From Alphaproteobacteria bacterium (lineage in GTDB: Bacteria > Planctomycetota > Phycisphaerae > UBA1845), in assembly GCA_028285105.1 (NCBI GenBank), contig JANQQE010000021.1, forward strand, positions 248,001-312,000: DNA of 64,000 nt, read 5' to 3'. The notes below the pieces were generated by a model that was not told where the DNA came from, ran no database searches, and worked only from the letters and a program-made list of their open reading frames with translations. Position numbers and translations under genes: made by a program. Shown one piece after another: positions 21,830 to 28,639 of this stretch (position 1 is its first letter; every line of letters begins with the position of its first letter).

Positions 21830-22087
21830 GGTGTTACTTCCTTCTTTCATACGTTTCTTTCTTTCTAACTTGTCTATTATTCTCTTCTCTTACAATTGGT
21901 TTATCTGATTATTGCTACCTGTCTCAGGCCCCGGGGTGTGCTTGCTGGAATGAATCGCAGTGCTTATGCCGGTGGGGCTTGGCGAGGAGTGACGGTATCA
22001 TAATCTTAATCTCAACGGACCGCCACAACCCAGTTTCAGTGGATACCAGCGACCATCAAGATCTGCCGATCGGCTGAGGACGATGCG

Positions 22088-22627
22088 ATGAACAAGATCT
22101 ATTACGCCGGAAACCGAATCTACTTTCGGGCAATCGAAAAATCCGATGCCGACACCATCGTTGCCTGGCGAAACGATCCCGATGCCTGGCGAACGCTCGG
22201 CCAAATGAACCCCCTCAACCGCATCCGCGAGGAGGAATTCATCGACGCCCTCTATAAACCCGGCGGAGACATCGTCCTTGGCGTCTCTCTGACCGAGGAT
22301 GACCGCTTCATCGGCATGTGCGGACTCCACCGTTCCGACCCGATCGCCCACAGCGCTACATTCGGCATCCTCATCGGCGACGAGAAAAACCGCGGGCAGG
22401 GTTACGGCATCGAAGCCACCGAACTGATGGTCAAATACGGATTCGAAGAACTCAACCTCAACCGCATCGAACTCTGCGTTTTTGCGGATCACCCCAAAGG
22501 CATCCACGTCTACACCCAAGCCGGTTTCGTCCAGGAAGGCGTCATGCGCGAGGCGTACTATCGAAACGGCAAGTACCACGACGTCCTCCACATGGCCATC
22601 CTCCGCCGCGAGTGGACGCCCAAGTAG
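22088..22627 (+). CDS. GNAT-family N-acetyltransferase, RimJ/RimL-like
   Basis: A 179-residue acetyltransferase. The acetyl-CoA-binding motif A is seen as DEKNRGQGYGIEATELMVKYGF (Q/RxxGxG/A pattern), followed by LNLNRIELCVFADHPKGIHVYTQAGFVQEGVMREAYYRNGKYHD, the usual RimJ/RimL ending with ILRREW. Substrates of such proteins include protein N-termini, polyamines and UDP-amino sugars; none can be assigned. It is convergent with the WaaP-like gene, 22 bases between stops. Confidence 0.88.
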   Translation: MNKIYYAGNRIYFRAIEKSDADTIVAWRNDPDAWRTLGQMNPLNRIREEEFIDALYKPGGDIVLGVSLTEDDRFIGMCGLHRSDPIAHSATFGILIGDEKNRGQGYGIEATELMVKYGFEELNLNRIELCVFADHPKGIHVYTQAGFVQEGVMREAYYRNGKYHDVLHMAILRREWTPK

Positions 22628-22649
22628 TCGAGCTTTCAATCCAGACGCT

Positions 22650-23441
22650 TTACTCGTTAACCCGCCCGCGCTCGCCGCGCTTCTGCACGGGATCGATCTT
22701 ATTGAGAATGCGTCTCCGAAGTTTGGTGATCGGTCGCGTCATGTATCCGTGCGCACGAACGTAAAACGGTTTGTGATACGAAGCCTTCAAATCAGCTTCG
22801 CTCATCTGATCGGGACGGGTACGACGTTGCAACTTGCGAATGTGATACCAGTCCGATTGCTGCAAACGCTTGCGCAACAGTCGAATTGGAAACAATTCGC
22901 CTCCGAATCCTTTCGACAGTCGCCAGGATATTTGAAAGTCGATCAGGTACGGCTGACCGTCGTCGCCGACGATGACGTTTTCGCATTTTTCGAGATCGAC
23001 ATAGGCCATGCCCCGTTCGTGAATCGCCGCAATCGCATCGCGCAATCGGTCGAAAAAATCGTCGGAAACGCGTTCGCCCTTTCGCAGCGGATGACCTTCA
23101 ATATAAGCGTGTGCTAGGCCGTGCTTGCCAACGCGCCCGAGGAATTTTGGGACAGCGACCAGATCGTCGAGCGCCGAGTAACATGACGATTCGTGCCAAG
23201 CGTGCCAACGCCCGATCCAACCCAAAGGGACAATTCCGAACCACGCTTTCCGCCCGATCTTCAGAACAATCTTACGGTTGTCCCCGACATAACGACCTGT
23301 GGCCGCAAAAAAATCGTGTTTGAAAATCTTGTCGAGACGATACTCACCCGATTCGAGCGACACCGTTTCCGGCATCTGGCTACGCCCCAATGCCAACAGG
23401 CACGCGGGCGTTTTCTTACCGAATGAATCGTTGCTCGACAC
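22650..23441 (-). CDS. WaaP/RIO-like small-molecule or LPS kinase
   Basis: A 263-residue protein with a reduced kinase fold: catalytic loop YVDLEKCENVIVGDDGQPYLIDFQIS, i.e. D...N and the metal-binding DF, as in Kdo/heptose kinases and RIO-like families. A Lys in KIVLKIGRK may be the ATP-binding residue. The C-terminus is basic and amphipathic (HGYMTRPITKLRRRILNK), suited to sitting at the membrane. The GTG start at 23441 has a GAGGA site six bases away. It is divergent from a GT2 glycosyltransferase, consistent with envelope glycolipid work. Confidence 0.7.
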   Translation of the reverse strand: MSSNDSFGKKTPACLLALGRSQMPETVSLESGEYRLDKIFKHDFFAATGRYVGDNRKIVLKIGRKAWFGIVPLGWIGRWHAWHESSCYSALDDLVAVPKFLGRVGKHGLAHAYIEGHPLRKGERVSDDFFDRLRDAIAAIHERGMAYVDLEKCENVIVGDDGQPYLIDFQISWRLSKGFGGELFPIRLLRKRLQQSDWYHIRKLQRRTRPDQMSEADLKASYHKPFYVRAHGYMTRPITKLRRRILNKIDPVQKRGERGRVNE

Positions 23442-23676
23442 GTTAAATCCTCGCAGTAGCCGCTGGGGAGAATCGCTCAGACCGCATGAGTCTAGTTGAC
23501 CGTCCGTTCAATTCAAATGAACGACCGCTGCCGTTACCTGCTGCGTCGCACAGCCATCCGTTAACCCGGTATCCGCAATCAAGGCGCGACGGCATCAGAC
23601 CGATGAAATTATCGGGCAGTATCCGTTTGCGCAGAGCTTTCGTACCCCAGCGCGAAGCCTTACTTGGAGAGTAGAC

Positions 23677-24951
23677 ATGCGGTTGACCGTCGTCATCCCG
23701 GCACTGAACGAAGAGCAGGCCATCGCCTCGATCATCGAGCGCACGCTCGCAGCCCGCCAGCACATCGTCGCGAACTCGCCGGTTTGCGGCGTGGATATCG
23801 TGGTGGTCAGCGATGGCTCCACCGACGGTACGGTCGAGATCGCCCGTCAATACGATGACATCAATCTGATCGTTTTCGAGAAGAACCAGGGCTACGGCGC
23901 GGCGATCAAAAAAGGCTTCTCAGTCAACCAATCGGATCTGGTCGGATTCCTCGATGCCGACGGAACCTGCGACCCCCACTTCTTCGCCGAACTGTGCAGC
24001 GACCTGTGCGACCAGAATGCAGCCATCGCCCTCGGTTCGCGCCTCGGACCGAACTCCGAAATGCCGCCGATTCGCCGACTCGGCAACCGCATTTATGCAA
24101 CCATCCTCAGCGTGCTGACCAACCGCATCGTCCACGACACAGCCAGCGGCATGCGCGTCATACGGCGGGAAGCGCTCGACGAATTGTACCCGTTGCCAGA
24201 TGGCTTGAACTTCACCCCAGCCATGAGCGCCCGAGCACTGCTCGACGACCGCCTTCCCATCGTCGAGCGACCCATGTCATACAAGGAGCGCGTCGGCGAA
24301 TCGAAACTGAGCGTCGTCAAAGATGGCGTGCGGTTCTTACAAACGATCATCGACATGACGCTTTTCGTCCGACCCGCGCGGGTGTTTCTTTCCGTTGCGA
24401 TCGCATGCGGACTTATCACCGTATTCTTCGCAGCCCACCCCATCGAAATGTGGCTGATGCAGCGGCGGTTGGAAGAGTCGATGATCTATCGCCTGCTGTT
24501 TTGTTCATTCATGGGTTCGATCGGCGTGCTGAGCCTTTCGGCGCTGATCATCGCGCAGACGCTTCGTTCGCTGGAACGCAACCGACCGGAAGACAACGCC
24601 CTCGTTCATCGCGGCCTGCGCGGATTGTTCTCAAAGACAGCGTTGACCGCGATCTTCTCTGTCACTGCGCCGGTCATCATATGGCTCGTCGGACCGGGCA
24701 TCCTGACATGGATCGGCGAAAGGCAGGTTCACATCCACTGGTCGCGCGTGGTGCTAGCCGGCTTGCTGACGTTCACACTGTGTCAGCTCATCACGACAAA
24801 GGTCGTCGTCGGATTGGTGCGGATCCACATCGCCCGCCAGCGCTTCGTCACCAGGCAGGCGCGCGTCGAACAGCAAAGCAAGCAACGACGCCCCATTCCG
24901 ATCCCGCAGAAACCGCTACCCGATCTGTCACGCGACGTGGTTCTGACGTAG
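23677..24951 (+). CDS. GT2 family membrane glycosyltransferase
   Basis: A 424-residue protein. Residues 1-225 form a GT-A domain of the dolichol-phosphate-mannose synthase kind: VVIPALNEEQAI, VVSDGSTDGT, FLDADGTCDPHF (DxD metal site) and GSRLGPNSEMPPIRRLGNRI. Four membrane segments follow (about 230-375), then a basic tail. Such enzymes load a sugar on a polyprenyl phosphate. The TAG stop lies inside the left arm of a large palindrome shared with the convergent oleD. ATG 23677 is the plausible start. Confidence 0.87.
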   Translation: MRLTVVIPALNEEQAIASIIERTLAARQHIVANSPVCGVDIVVVSDGSTDGTVEIARQYDDINLIVFEKNQGYGAAIKKGFSVNQSDLVGFLDADGTCDPHFFAELCSDLCDQNAAIALGSRLGPNSEMPPIRRLGNRIYATILSVLTNRIVHDTASGMRVIRREALDELYPLPDGLNFTPAMSARALLDDRLPIVERPMSYKERVGESKLSVVKDGVRFLQTIIDMTLFVRPARVFLSVAIACGLITVFFAAHPIEMWLMQRRLEESMIYRLLFCSFMGSIGVLSLSALIIAQTLRSLERNRPEDNALVHRGLRGLFSKTALTAIFSVTAPVIIWLVGPGILTWIGERQVHIHWSRVVLAGLLTFTLCQLITTKVVVGLVRIHIARQRFVTRQARVEQQSKQRRPIPIPQKPLPDLSRDVVLT

Positions 24952-25013
24952 GGTGGGCCGTGCCCACCAATCCGTAAAGCATTTGAACGGCGGTGGGCAC
25001 GGCCCACCCTACG
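24947..25013. repeat. Large inverted repeat between convergent genes
   Basis: Arms of 22 bp (24947-24968 and 24992-25013) are exact reverse complements, with core GTAGGGTGGGCCGTGCCCAC on the left and a 23-base loop. The GT2 stop TAG (24949-24951) and the oleD stop TAG (plus-strand CTA 25009-25011) occupy mirror positions in the arms. There is no T run, so if it terminates transcription it is not a classic intrinsic terminator. The GGGTGGGCCGTGCCCACC core resembles a dispersed repeat I recall in other planctomycete genomes. Confidence 0.85.
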
Positions 25014-26031
25014 CCCTGCTTTCAAACCATTCGCGCAAACGCAGTAACCCCTCTTCCGTCGAGACTTTCGGCTCGTACCCCAAATCGTTGCGCGCTGCAT
25101 CCATAGTGAAATAATGCGTCGTGGACATTTGATCGACCACAAACCGCGTCAGCCGCGGCTCGCCTTTTCGCCGAAACAGCCGATGCGAAAACTCCATGAC
25201 GCCCGCACCGAAGCGCGCTACGCCTCGTGGAATGCGCTTCGCTACCTTGGGCACGCCGGCTGCTTCCAGGATCCCGTTGATAATCTCCCACAGATTCACC
25301 GGTTCGCCCTGACTGATGAAATACGCCTTTCCACCCACCGCGTCGTTTGTCAGCAGCGCGTCTGCCGCACAGAGATGCGCGTCGGCTGCATTGTCAATGT
25401 AGGTTACATCCACCTGCTGCGAACCGTCGCCGATGATCCGCAGTTTGCCCGACCGGCACTGCGATACCACCTGCGGGACGATGTGGTTGTCGTTGGGCCC
25501 CCAGACCAGGTGGGGCCGCAACGCGACGGTGCGCAGGGTTCGGCAGTTGGCGGCAAGAACCAATTGCTCCGCGATGGCCTTCGTCGCGCTGTAGTGCGAT
25601 GCGTAACGGGCTGGGTAGCCAACCGATTCGTCGATGCCGTGTTGATCCTCGCCTCCGAAGATCACGCTCGGCGAACTTGTAAACACAAGCCGGCCCACGC
25701 CATGCTTTCGACATCCCGCGATCACGTTCTCGGTGCCGATAACGTTGGGTTCATAGAAATCGACGTAGCGCCCCCAAGCCCCTGCTTTCGCGGCAACGTG
25801 AAAAACAATGTCGCAACGGTGACATGCGTCAACTACAGTCTTGCGATCGCGAATGTCGCCTTGAACGGCCTGCACACCAAGGCTCGCAAGTTCCGGATAC
25901 GCACTGCGTGCAAGCGTCCGCACCTGCATACCGCGCGCGATCAGCCGCTCGACAACCGCACGGCCCACGAACCCGCCGCCACCGGTCACCAATGCAGCCT
26001 GTCTAGAACGTGTCTGTTGATTTGCTTCCAT
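25009..26031 (-). CDS. oleD: OleD-like NAD(P)-dependent 2-alkyl-3-ketoalkanoate reductase
   Basis: A 340-residue extended short-chain dehydrogenase (3-beta-HSD/epimerase type): Rossmann motif TGGGGFVGRA at residue ~17, catalytic YSATK (YxxxK) at ~150, and the DVTYIDNAADAHLCA pattern. In the Ole pathway OleD reduces the beta-keto acid made by OleA to a beta-hydroxy acid. The assignment to OleD rests on the adjacent OleC- and OleB-like genes, since the fold alone is common. ATG 26031 starts 14 bases after oleC; a start at 26070 would overlap oleC by 25 bases. Confidence 0.82.
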   Translation of the reverse strand: MEANQQTRSRQAALVTGGGGFVGRAVVERLIARGMQVRTLARSAYPELASLGVQAVQGDIRDRKTVVDACHRCDIVFHVAAKAGAWGRYVDFYEPNVIGTENVIAGCRKHGVGRLVFTSSPSVIFGGEDQHGIDESVGYPARYASHYSATKAIAEQLVLAANCRTLRTVALRPHLVWGPNDNHIVPQVVSQCRSGKLRIIGDGSQQVDVTYIDNAADAHLCAADALLTNDAVGGKAYFISQGEPVNLWEIINGILEAAGVPKVAKRIPRGVARFGAGVMEFSHRLFRRKGEPRLTRFVVDQMSTTHYFTMDAARNDLGYEPKVSTEEGLLRLREWFESRA

Positions 26032-26045
26032 ATGCGGCAGCAAGT

Positions 26046-27704
26046 CTACCGCAGTTCGCCAGCCGCCCACAAGGCGAGTTGCTCGCGATTGATTTTGGCA
26101 TTGTGACGCACATCCACCGGAAACGACGGGTGATACAGAATTGTGCGGATCGATGCCGTTTTCTCATTCTGTTCGCCAATCTCAAGCAACTCGGCAGTCA
26201 ACGCTTGCTTGTCGACGGATTTGCCGCTTTCTGTTTCGACGCACAAGACAGGTTTGTAGTTTGGAGATTCGCCAACGCCGACGAGTGCGCATCGCCGAAC
26301 CCTCGGATGCGCATTGAAGATCGCTTCACATGGAATGGTAAAGAGTGTACCTGATGCGGTTTGCACCCGATGTGCTTTCCGCCCGCAAAACCAAAGTCGC
26401 CCGGTTTCGTCCAGGTACCCGACATCGCCCATCCGGTGCCATATCGTGTCACCTTCGAGAATCTTCGCCAGTTTCGTCGCGTCCGGCTTCCTAAAGTATG
26501 CTTTCGTCACGACCGGTCCGCGGACACAGATTTCGCCGATTTCGCCCGCGCTCAGTTCCTTGCATTCGGACCAGTCCGCTATCGGTTCATCCGAAATCGC
26601 AATAATCCGAAGTTCCATTCCCGGTAGCACCCGCCCGACACAAATGCCTTCGCCCTTCTCGGTCTGCGATGCCGTCTCTGAAATCACCTCGCGCGATTCG
26701 ATCGACGCCACCGGCAACGATTCGGTCGCGCCGTACGGGGTGAAAATGTCGGCGTCCGGGCTGACGATGTTTCGCAAACGCGCAAGAAGCGCCGGCGGAA
26801 TCGGTGCGCCGGCAGTTAGAATTCTGCGAAGCGTCGGCAGTTGAAAATTGCATGTCTCGCAGTGCGCAACAACCCGCGCCAGAAGTGCCGGCGAGCCAAA
26901 AATCTGTGTGGCCTTGTTGTCCACGATCGCCGAAACGATTCGCGTCGGATCGACCTGCCCGGGCAGCGACGGGTTCATGTCCGGTATGACTGCCGTCATT
27001 CCCAACGCGACGTCGAATAGCGCAAACAGCGGAAACGTTGCGACGTCCGTGTCCTTTTCGCCGCACTTGAAATACGACGCCAGGTAACGAACCTGGGCTG
27101 CAAACATGCCGTGCTCATACGCAACACCCTTCGCCGGACCGGTGCTGCCGCTCGTAAACAGGACCGCCGCAAGATCGACGGCTTGCACGTCGGCAGTTTC
27201 GAACGGTTCGCGATTCGCCGAACGAACGCCCTTGAGGCTCGCACCACCCCAGAACAAACGCGGCCCGACCGTCACGCACTTTCGCACGCTGCGAAACGAC
27301 TTGGCAAAGATGATCCGCGCGATGTGCGCGAGCGGTATGCCAATAAACGCCTCAGCTTCGATCTCTTCAAGGCAGCCGATCAGTTTCTTTCGACCCATGC
27401 CCGGATCGATCAAGACTGGAACCGCGCCGATTTTGAACAATGCAAACGTCAGAACAAAAAACTCAACACCGGGCTTGACCATGAGAATCGTGCGCATTTC
27501 GCGGTCGATACCATACTCGCGCAGACCCCGCGCAACACGATTGACCTCCTCATCCAACGCTACAAATGAAATAGAATTGCATCCGCGCTGTTCCAGGATT
27601 GCAGTCTTGTCCGGACACCGGAGCGCAGCATCGCTCAAAATATCTGCGACGTTGACGTATTGATCGGATGAAGACTGCACAACCTGGTCAGCCGCCTGTG
27701 ACAT
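26046..27704 (-). CDS. oleC: OleC-like beta-lactone synthetase (AMP-dependent synthetase family)
   Basis: A 552-residue ANL-family adenylating enzyme. The P-loop is LFTSGSTGPAKGVAYEHG (about residue 190), with TPYGATESLPVA and MGDVGYLDETGRLWFCGRKAH further on and a C-terminal lysine in HNAKINREQLALW. OleC converts a beta-hydroxy acid plus ATP to a cis-beta-lactone. The Ole-type core GPVVTKAYFRKPDATKLAKI and CEAIFNAHP fit this subfamily as I recall it. Its ATG overlaps the oleB stop by one base (TAATG), so oleB and oleC are co-translated. Confidence 0.87.
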   Translation of the reverse strand: MSQAADQVVQSSSDQYVNVADILSDAALRCPDKTAILEQRGCNSISFVALDEEVNRVARGLREYGIDREMRTILMVKPGVEFFVLTFALFKIGAVPVLIDPGMGRKKLIGCLEEIEAEAFIGIPLAHIARIIFAKSFRSVRKCVTVGPRLFWGGASLKGVRSANREPFETADVQAVDLAAVLFTSGSTGPAKGVAYEHGMFAAQVRYLASYFKCGEKDTDVATFPLFALFDVALGMTAVIPDMNPSLPGQVDPTRIVSAIVDNKATQIFGSPALLARVVAHCETCNFQLPTLRRILTAGAPIPPALLARLRNIVSPDADIFTPYGATESLPVASIESREVISETASQTEKGEGICVGRVLPGMELRIIAISDEPIADWSECKELSAGEIGEICVRGPVVTKAYFRKPDATKLAKILEGDTIWHRMGDVGYLDETGRLWFCGRKAHRVQTASGTLFTIPCEAIFNAHPRVRRCALVGVGESPNYKPVLCVETESGKSVDKQALTAELLEIGEQNEKTASIRTILYHPSFPVDVRHNAKINREQLALWAAGELR

Positions 27705-28639
27705 TACGTGGCACTTTCGGCGAGCGCCGGCTGAATGGCGTGAATGGGGTTGCGGTGTAGAAACTTGCGCACCAACGGCACAATCCGATCGCCGTCGTCT
27801 TCAAGGCAGTAATGCCCCGCACTTGGAAAGGTGTGGATTTCAGCTTCCGGGCAGCGCCTGCGCCATTCGGATAGAAAATCCTGATCGAACACAAAATCCT
27901 GCTCACCCCAGCAAATCAACTTGGGAACATGGGCAATCGTGTCGCATCGATCGCTGACCCACATGACTTCATCGTAGCTGGGATCGCCGGGTTTGAGCGG
28001 AATGTCCTGCACGAAGCGGCGCACCGCGATGCGATTCGACCACGAGTCATACGGAAATTTGTAACCGGCAGCCACCGATGGCGACATCCCCCGCGCGGGC
28101 GCCAGCACATTCGCCCCAACGGTGAACAAATTCATTCCTTGAAGCAGCAACGACGCCATCGGACTGACGTGGCGAACGAGCCAAAGCGCCGGTGGCAACG
28201 GTTTGCACTCCGGAAGACAAAATGCAGCCGTATTCATGAAGACCAGGCGGCTGACCCGCCCGACACGACGAAGCGCCGCCCCCATGCCGATCATTCCGCC
28301 CCAATCGTGCATCGCGAAAGTGACATTGCGTGTCAGTTTGAGTCCATCGAGAAACGACTCGAAATCGTCGATGCGGTTCTTGAGCGTATAGTCGTATTCG
28401 GAGAGCGGTGGTTTGTCGGAGAGTCCGCAACCGATGTGATCAACTGCGATCACGCGAAACTGCTTGCGGAGTTCGAGTACCAGTTCGCGAAAGTAAAACG
28501 ACCACGTCGGATTGCCATGCACGCAAACGATCGGTTCGCCCGCGCCTTCATCGATATAATGATAACGATGCCCACCGATGGTAACCCACCGACTCGTAAA
28601 TGGATAGTGCTGACGCCAGCACGCTTCATCCGCCTTCAT
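27704..28639 (-). CDS. oleB: OleB-like beta-lactone decarboxylase (haloalkane dehalogenase fold)
   Basis: A 311-residue alpha/beta-hydrolase. The oxyanion motif is HGNPTWSFYFR, the nucleophile elbow is HDWGG (Asp nucleophile, as in haloalkane dehalogenases), and the His is in AGHYCLEDD. In the Ole pathway OleB splits the beta-lactone into a cis-olefin and CO2. ATG 28639 follows GGAAG four bases upstream; a GTG at 28672 sits directly after the upstream stop. A haloalkane dehalogenase role cannot be excluded from sequence, but the neighbours favour OleB. Confidence 0.85.
   Translation of the reverse strand: MKADEACWRQHYPFTSRWVTIGGHRYHYIDEGAGEPIVCVHGNPTWSFYFRELVLELRKQFRVIAVDHIGCGLSDKPPLSEYDYTLKNRIDDFESFLDGLKLTRNVTFAMHDWGGMIGMGAALRRVGRVSRLVFMNTAAFCLPECKPLPPALWLVRHVSPMASLLLQGMNLFTVGANVLAPARGMSPSVAAGYKFPYDSWSNRIAVRRFVQDIPLKPGDPSYDEVMWVSDRCDTIAHVPKLICWGEQDFVFDQDFLSEWRRRCPEAEIHTFPSAGHYCLEDDGDRIVPLVRKFLHRNPIHAIQPALAESAT

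Follow-up and report, generated by a model that had tools for sequence, protein, structure and literature searches.

Between two convergent genes in the stretch of DNA analysed here (64,000 nucleotides, the window in what follows) lies a long palindrome that holds the stop codons of both. This raises the question of whether such a palindrome is a hairpin that belongs to this junction or one copy of a repeat, and, if it is a repeat, how it was copied and whether it does anything for the genes that end in it. We are highly confident that it is a REPIN, i.e. two GTAG-tagged REP hairpins placed head-to-head, which is non-autonomous; a REP-associated tyrosine transposase (RAYT) acting in trans most likely copied it. 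The element is ordinary in kind, a further member of the known GTAG REPs and REPINs.

The palindrome and the genes that end in it

A repeat search finds an inverted repeat of 22 bp without a mismatch, its arms separated by a spacer of 23 nt (Table 1). The arms (24947-24968 and 24992-25013) pair at 22 of 22 positions, just as the original prediction had it. RNA from 24930 to 25030 folds at -62.1 kcal/mol, against a mean of -34.06 for shuffled sequences (z -9.13), and none of 200 shuffles folds as well. Each arm contains a small hairpin of its own, with a 7-bp stem, a CGT loop and GTAG in front, a make-up that had not been spelled out in the prediction. Searched with a tolerance of 3 mismatches, the window contains two copies of the 21-nt arm, while the mean over 100 shuffles is 0.00. 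Both genes, a glycosyltransferase (GT2) and an OleD-like reductase, stop in TAG at mirror positions of the arms, as had been read from the sequence. The OleD-like protein scores 406 and 400 bits against the NCBIfam OleD models, which is under the curated cut-off of 580.

Table 1. Features of the palindrome and its flanking genes (window positions).
Feature	Position	Strand	Basis
Whole element, head-to-head dimer of two GTAG REPs (REPIN)	24947..25013		Inverted-repeat search, fold, copies in own genome and relatives
REP unit 1, GTAG + GGTGGGC-CGT-GCCCACC hairpin	24948..24968	+	Sequence, exact match
Spacer, 23 nt	24969..24991		Sequence
REP unit 2, inverted copy of unit 1	24992..25012	-	Exact match
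TAG of REP 1, stop codon of the GT2 gene	24949..24951	+	ORF list
TAG of REP 2, stop codon of the oleD-like gene	25009..25011	-	ORF list
Convergent gene 1, glycosyltransferase family 2, 424 aa	23677..24951	+	Pfam Glycos_transf_2 PF00535, E=1.4e-30
Convergent gene 2, OleD-like 2-alkyl-3-oxoalkanoate reductase / SDR, 353 aa	25009..26070	-	PF01073 (3Beta_HSD), E=7.9e-56; NF042422, E=8e-120

Di Nocera et al. (2013, PMC3733652) describe a superfamily of GTAG REPs with 24 families, which includes Planctomycetes and names R. baltica. The element has in common with it the GTAG tag, the 7-bp stem, the loop of 3 nt, the pairing of REPs into head-to-head dimers whose spacer measures some 20 nt or longer, the location near 3' ends and between convergent genes, the TAG stops, the RAYT genes flanked by the repeat, and the occurrence in Planctomycetes. 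In Haemophilus influenzae Rd, Nunvar et al. (2010, PMC2817692) report a RAYT-associated REP, GTAGGGTGGGC...GCCCACC, with the same tag and the same 7-bp stem, but its loop is TTcA or TTtA (their Table 1) instead of CGT, and the phylum is a different one. The REP stem of E. coli is bulged, whereas the one at the GT2/oleD junction is a perfect 7 bp, as in the published group 3 REPs (PMC8266576). With the REPINs described in Pseudomonas fluorescens and E. coli (Bertels and Rainey 2011, PMC3116915; PMC8049555) the element shares two inverted REPs, a diverse spacer and a non-autonomous nature. Copies in those systems are more numerous where a RAYT is present; the genome studied here instead appears to be RAYT-less, with few copies. 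A search that left most subscription journals outside recognised no literature on planctomycete or Phycisphaerae REPINs, or on this arm, for the lineage beyond the mention in PMC3733652. A REPIN-RAYT system is now placed in this lineage, whose RAYT relatives are named Phycisphaerae.

Copies of the arm and the cognate transposase

The core had been said to recall a dispersed REP-like repeat, possibly a mobile or amplified element, and to be a local terminator if the arm were absent elsewhere in the genome. In the own genome (G000; 4.81 Mb in 36 contigs, 97.8% complete) there are 15 forward and 15 reverse matches to the arm with at most 3 mismatches, 10 of them exact, against 0 and 1 for the reversed pattern used as control. 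Many of the matches form inverted pairs, 42-46 nt apart, and a variant arm has compensating changes in the stem (GGTGCGC...GCGCACC). With at most one mismatch, GTAGGGTGSGCNNNGCSCACC has at least one match in 37 of 60 genomes, the own included. In four genomes of the same genus it is far more abundant than the 23 arms of G000, with 173 in G001, 239 in G002, 109 in G003 and 221 in G004. By sequence, copy number and dimer layout the palindrome is thus a GTAG REP, and the idea of an amplified element stands. The spacers of all 58 G002 dimers found, most of which a dimer pattern had retrieved, are 21-28 nt long, 22 and 23 nt being the two commonest lengths (52 of the 58), and only one of these dimers is called inside a gene. 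Because exact-arm patterns were used to retrieve the dimers of G002 and G004, selection by the search accounts in part for how perfect their arms are; this does not apply to the GT2/oleD orthologues, which were identified through their proteins.

A RAYT, also asked for in the original prediction, was found in relatives and not in the genome itself. Among the first 16 regions fetched there was no RAYT of the right kind near an arm, because the best PF01797 match per genome is usually not a RAYT; the cognate genes surfaced only when all PF01797 matches of selected genomes were searched. In G001 and G002 a RAYT gene of 182 aa adjoins a gene which, from its protein sequence, we take to be YceH/DUF480-like, and an exact arm lies on both sides in inverted orientation. 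The protein matches NCBIfam REP_Tyr_transpos (E=3.9e-53) and PDB 4er8, 'TnpArep' (E=2e-32). It has in common with this E. coli TnpA-REP the HUH motif (H60-L-H62) and the region of the tyrosine Y133, and an HLH motif and a DY region are conserved across five aligned RAYTs. Inverted GTAGGGTGGGCCGTGCCCACC directly flanks the gene in G001, G002 and also G048, which belongs to another family; there the RAYT is 67% identical and the flanking arms are the same. In G004 the two ends of the same RAYT gene lie at two contig edges, with an arm at each. One of the G004 loci (L209, the first 157 bases of G004:C193) has a contig edge inside the RAYT that runs into unrelated sequence, which could be a chimeric edge or an insertion.

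Inverted GTAG hairpins stand on both sides of 25 of 33 RAYT loci (33 of 40 RAYT matches were examined, the other 7 having no locus), as against 0 of 24 loci of other Y1_Tnp genes (7 of the 31 control loci were dropped as too short), and 47 of 80 named RAYT loci have them. G001, G002 and G038 also carry a paralogous RAYT with a variant arm of its own at the boundaries, GTAGGGTCCGC...GCGGACC. This sister REP also occurs in the own genome, with 20 arms in 1.2 Mb (for example at G000:C10 166026, 198148, 410253 and 499371; see also loci L191, L192 and L193), and a RAYT that matches it was not found in G000 either. Across the 60 genomes, the presence of a RAYT (E<=1e-25) does not predict the number of arm copies (medians 2 and 1, p=0.13), since the clade counted also holds RAYTs whose partners are other REPs.

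In the 97.8% complete G000 the cognate RAYT was not found, and the syntenic site is without it. A PF01797 search of G000 gives one weak match only, a stop-containing relative at 29% identity with different, unrelated palindromes at its flanks. This stop-containing relative of the Y1 transposases (L031, G000:C10:121544-122059) sits amid another palindrome, GGGTGGCCCA...TGGGG, and an open relative with similar palindromes around it exists in G001 (L176, G001:C68). G003, which is 90% complete, has no close RAYT match either despite its 109 arms. Both G000 and G003 have the YceH/DUF480-like gene, but no RAYT adjoins it. We infer that the absence from G000 is a loss, judging from five genomes and no formal species tree. 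RAYT-less genomes are known in the REP literature, so that a RAYT in the same genome is not required; the current mobility of the REPIN in G000 is nevertheless doubtful, since no cognate RAYT was found there. The RAYT-bearing relatives with hundreds of arms and this one RAYT-less genome with few provide a natural comparison.

Could the palindrome have come about in another way? It is highly improbable that it is a bidirectional terminator that evolved locally at the convergent junction and is not a repeat. A very stable hairpin at a convergent junction, with arms identical in three species, would be in keeping with this, but the same 21-nt arm is dispersed in G000 and its relatives, neither strand has a T-run after the hairpin, and the terminator scan calls nothing at the element. 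The dispersed arms rule out a local origin, that is, the 'not a repeat' part of the explanation; a role in termination would be compatible with a REP origin. A classical terminator role is unlikely for its own reason, the lack of a T-run. Rfam gives no match above the gathering score in 22000-28000.

It is also very unlikely that the copies spread without any RAYT, whether through gene conversion, through recombination between copies or as the MITE-like end of another IS, even though no intact cognate RAYT was found in G000, the copy-rich G003 has no close match, and conversion would suit an address at which the arms are identical and the spacers differ. Against it, the RAYT of G001, G002 and G048 is bounded by exactly the GT2/oleD arm, as expected for REPtrons, the paralogous RAYT is bounded by its own variant, and among the loci read there is no IS that ends in the arm. 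Copying by a RAYT acting on the REPIN is thus the preferred reading. By analogy with TnpA-REP, for which published assays found that GTAG is needed for activity (PMC8266576), the RAYT would act in trans on the single-stranded REP hairpin and use the GTAG.

Gene ends and the turnover of copies

How the arms lie relative to gene ends had been left as a check, and the dimers of G002 were used for it, with genes called by a simple codon-usage script. For the 56 of 58 dimers that could be classified, 24 lie between convergent, 29 between co-directional and 3 between divergent genes, while the 310 gene junctions in 400 kb of the G002 genome are 55 convergent, 200 co-directional and 55 divergent; the enrichment at convergent junctions has p=8e-5. 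The 3' ends of genes bunch close to the REPs, with a spike exactly at -4, where the TAG of the REP is the stop codon (14 of 77 in G002, 3 of 16 in G004, and 4 of 14 in G000). When frames of at least 150 codons enter the GTAG in G002, 15 of 18 do so in the TAG frame (p=2e-5), and the other two frames of the arm are open. Even in the REP family few dimers provide a TAG stop on both sides; only 1 of the 24 convergent dimers of G002 does, and 1 of the 5 of G000, in both cases at the GT2/oleD junction. Beside one REP at a gene end (G002:C16, about 619570) there is a further repeat-like stretch, GGGTGCCCCGCCCTTCAGGGTGGGGGAC.

The location at gene ends and the supply of TAG are properties already known for GTAG REPs: according to Di Nocera et al. 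(PMC3733652), most convergent REPs are at most 20 bp from both 3' ends, and the GTAG termini often provide the TAG stop. New copies that settle 3' of genes would be the ones that survive. As GTAG carries TAG, in-frame fusions at a native gene end would leave the protein unchanged and be tolerated, and out-of-frame fusions would be purged. This offers a simple reason for neat gene ends at GTAG repeats, i.e. that the tag holds a stop codon and only in-frame fusions are harmless. Two sites differ between species: between L258 (G002) and L023 (G000), and at the YceH-like gene beside the RAYT in G001 and G004, a native TAG lies a few nt away from the REP in one species and is fused with the TAG of the REP in the other. 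Deletion between TAG repeats fits these cases as well as insertion at existing GTAG or TAG targets does, and flanks at empty sites are too diverged for a clean count of target-site duplications.

Copies have been gained and lost over time, and in G000 many appear to be gone or decaying, as presence and absence between G002 and G000 and the decayed remnants indicate. For 11 G002 dimers both flanks could be aligned in the fetched stretches of G000, where there are 4 dimers (one with another stem type), 1 decayed remnant and 6 sites with nothing; 3 further REP sites of G002 also have no REP in G000. On other contigs of G000, the inherited copies #15, #18, #29 and #52 are partly decayed. This decay in the absence of a RAYT resembles the E. 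coli genomes without a RAYT, which are reported to have fewer REPINs (PMC8049555).

For most of the 26 cross-genome pairs at shared addresses, spacer identity falls among the values obtained with random pairs, whose null means are 0.53 and 0.59. A replacement of spacers at shared addresses was considered and rejected, as identities at the random-pair level are explained by neutral drift alone. Six of the 26 pairs, however, fit clearly better when one spacer is inverted (0.58-0.73 vs 0.46-0.56).

Another dispersed palindrome, ATTCCCGC-N4-GCGGGAAT, is found in G000 (L006, L008, L019, L028 and elsewhere), with 18 matches on both strands in 1.2 Mb; G002 has 18 in 0.4 Mb. In L028 it occupies the place expected for half of an inherited REPIN.

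The GT2/oleD junction in other species and a possible role of the hairpin

The dimer is present at the GT2/oleD junction of G000, G002 and G004, and would thus have landed just downstream of the two convergent gene ends before these separated. All 42 of 42 arm positions are identical in the three genomes, while the spacers have 12-14 identical positions per 23-25 aligned columns and the four-fold sites of GT2 are 53-57% identical. Since the spacers differ like synonymous sites, drift would not have kept the arms unchanged, which suggests, from these alignments, that the arms are under constraint or homogenised between copies. The oleD gene of G004 ends 3 nt short of the element.

G001 is the closest to G004 by its GT2 gene (92.5% identity), and here GT2 and oleD lie far apart on different contigs (L113, G001:C148, and L084, G001:C1) without the element. 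Its GT2 stops at the same codon with a TAG of its own, which may be the native stop or what remained after loss of the element. The suggestion that the palindrome may supply both stop codons therefore holds in that both arm TAGs are in use, but the element need not have created the end of GT2, as G001 stops at the same codon without it. G001 may have lost the element secondarily, and the separation of the two genes is possibly a rearrangement broken at the REPIN.

In RNA the stop codon forms the base of a stem that is 22 bp long or longer. A transcript hairpin that starts at the stop codon would probably cap both 3' ends, either by slowing exonucleases or by stalling ribosomes or the polymerase. 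In E. coli, REPs at most 15 nt from a stop codon are reported to stall ribosomes and lower translation (cited in PMC12306157), and by analogy an effect on the 3'-end stability or translation of both mRNAs is likely.

A tentative and rather doubtful extension is that the copy at this junction has been domesticated as a 3'-end element, its stop-codon hairpin being selected for its effect on both convergent mRNAs, and that REPIN addresses are conserved more widely, with the element inverted or replaced. What points to domestication is the contrast of perfect arms with spacers and synonymous sites at 52-57% identity, together with the decay of other inherited copies in G000. If the frozen arms do reflect selection, the junction would be a test case for how repeats become gene-end regulators after their transposase is gone.

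One further address (L297 in G002, L388 in G001 and L265 in G004) has a spacer that is itself 95-100% identical across three species, and there the spacer of G000 differs and fits better when inverted.
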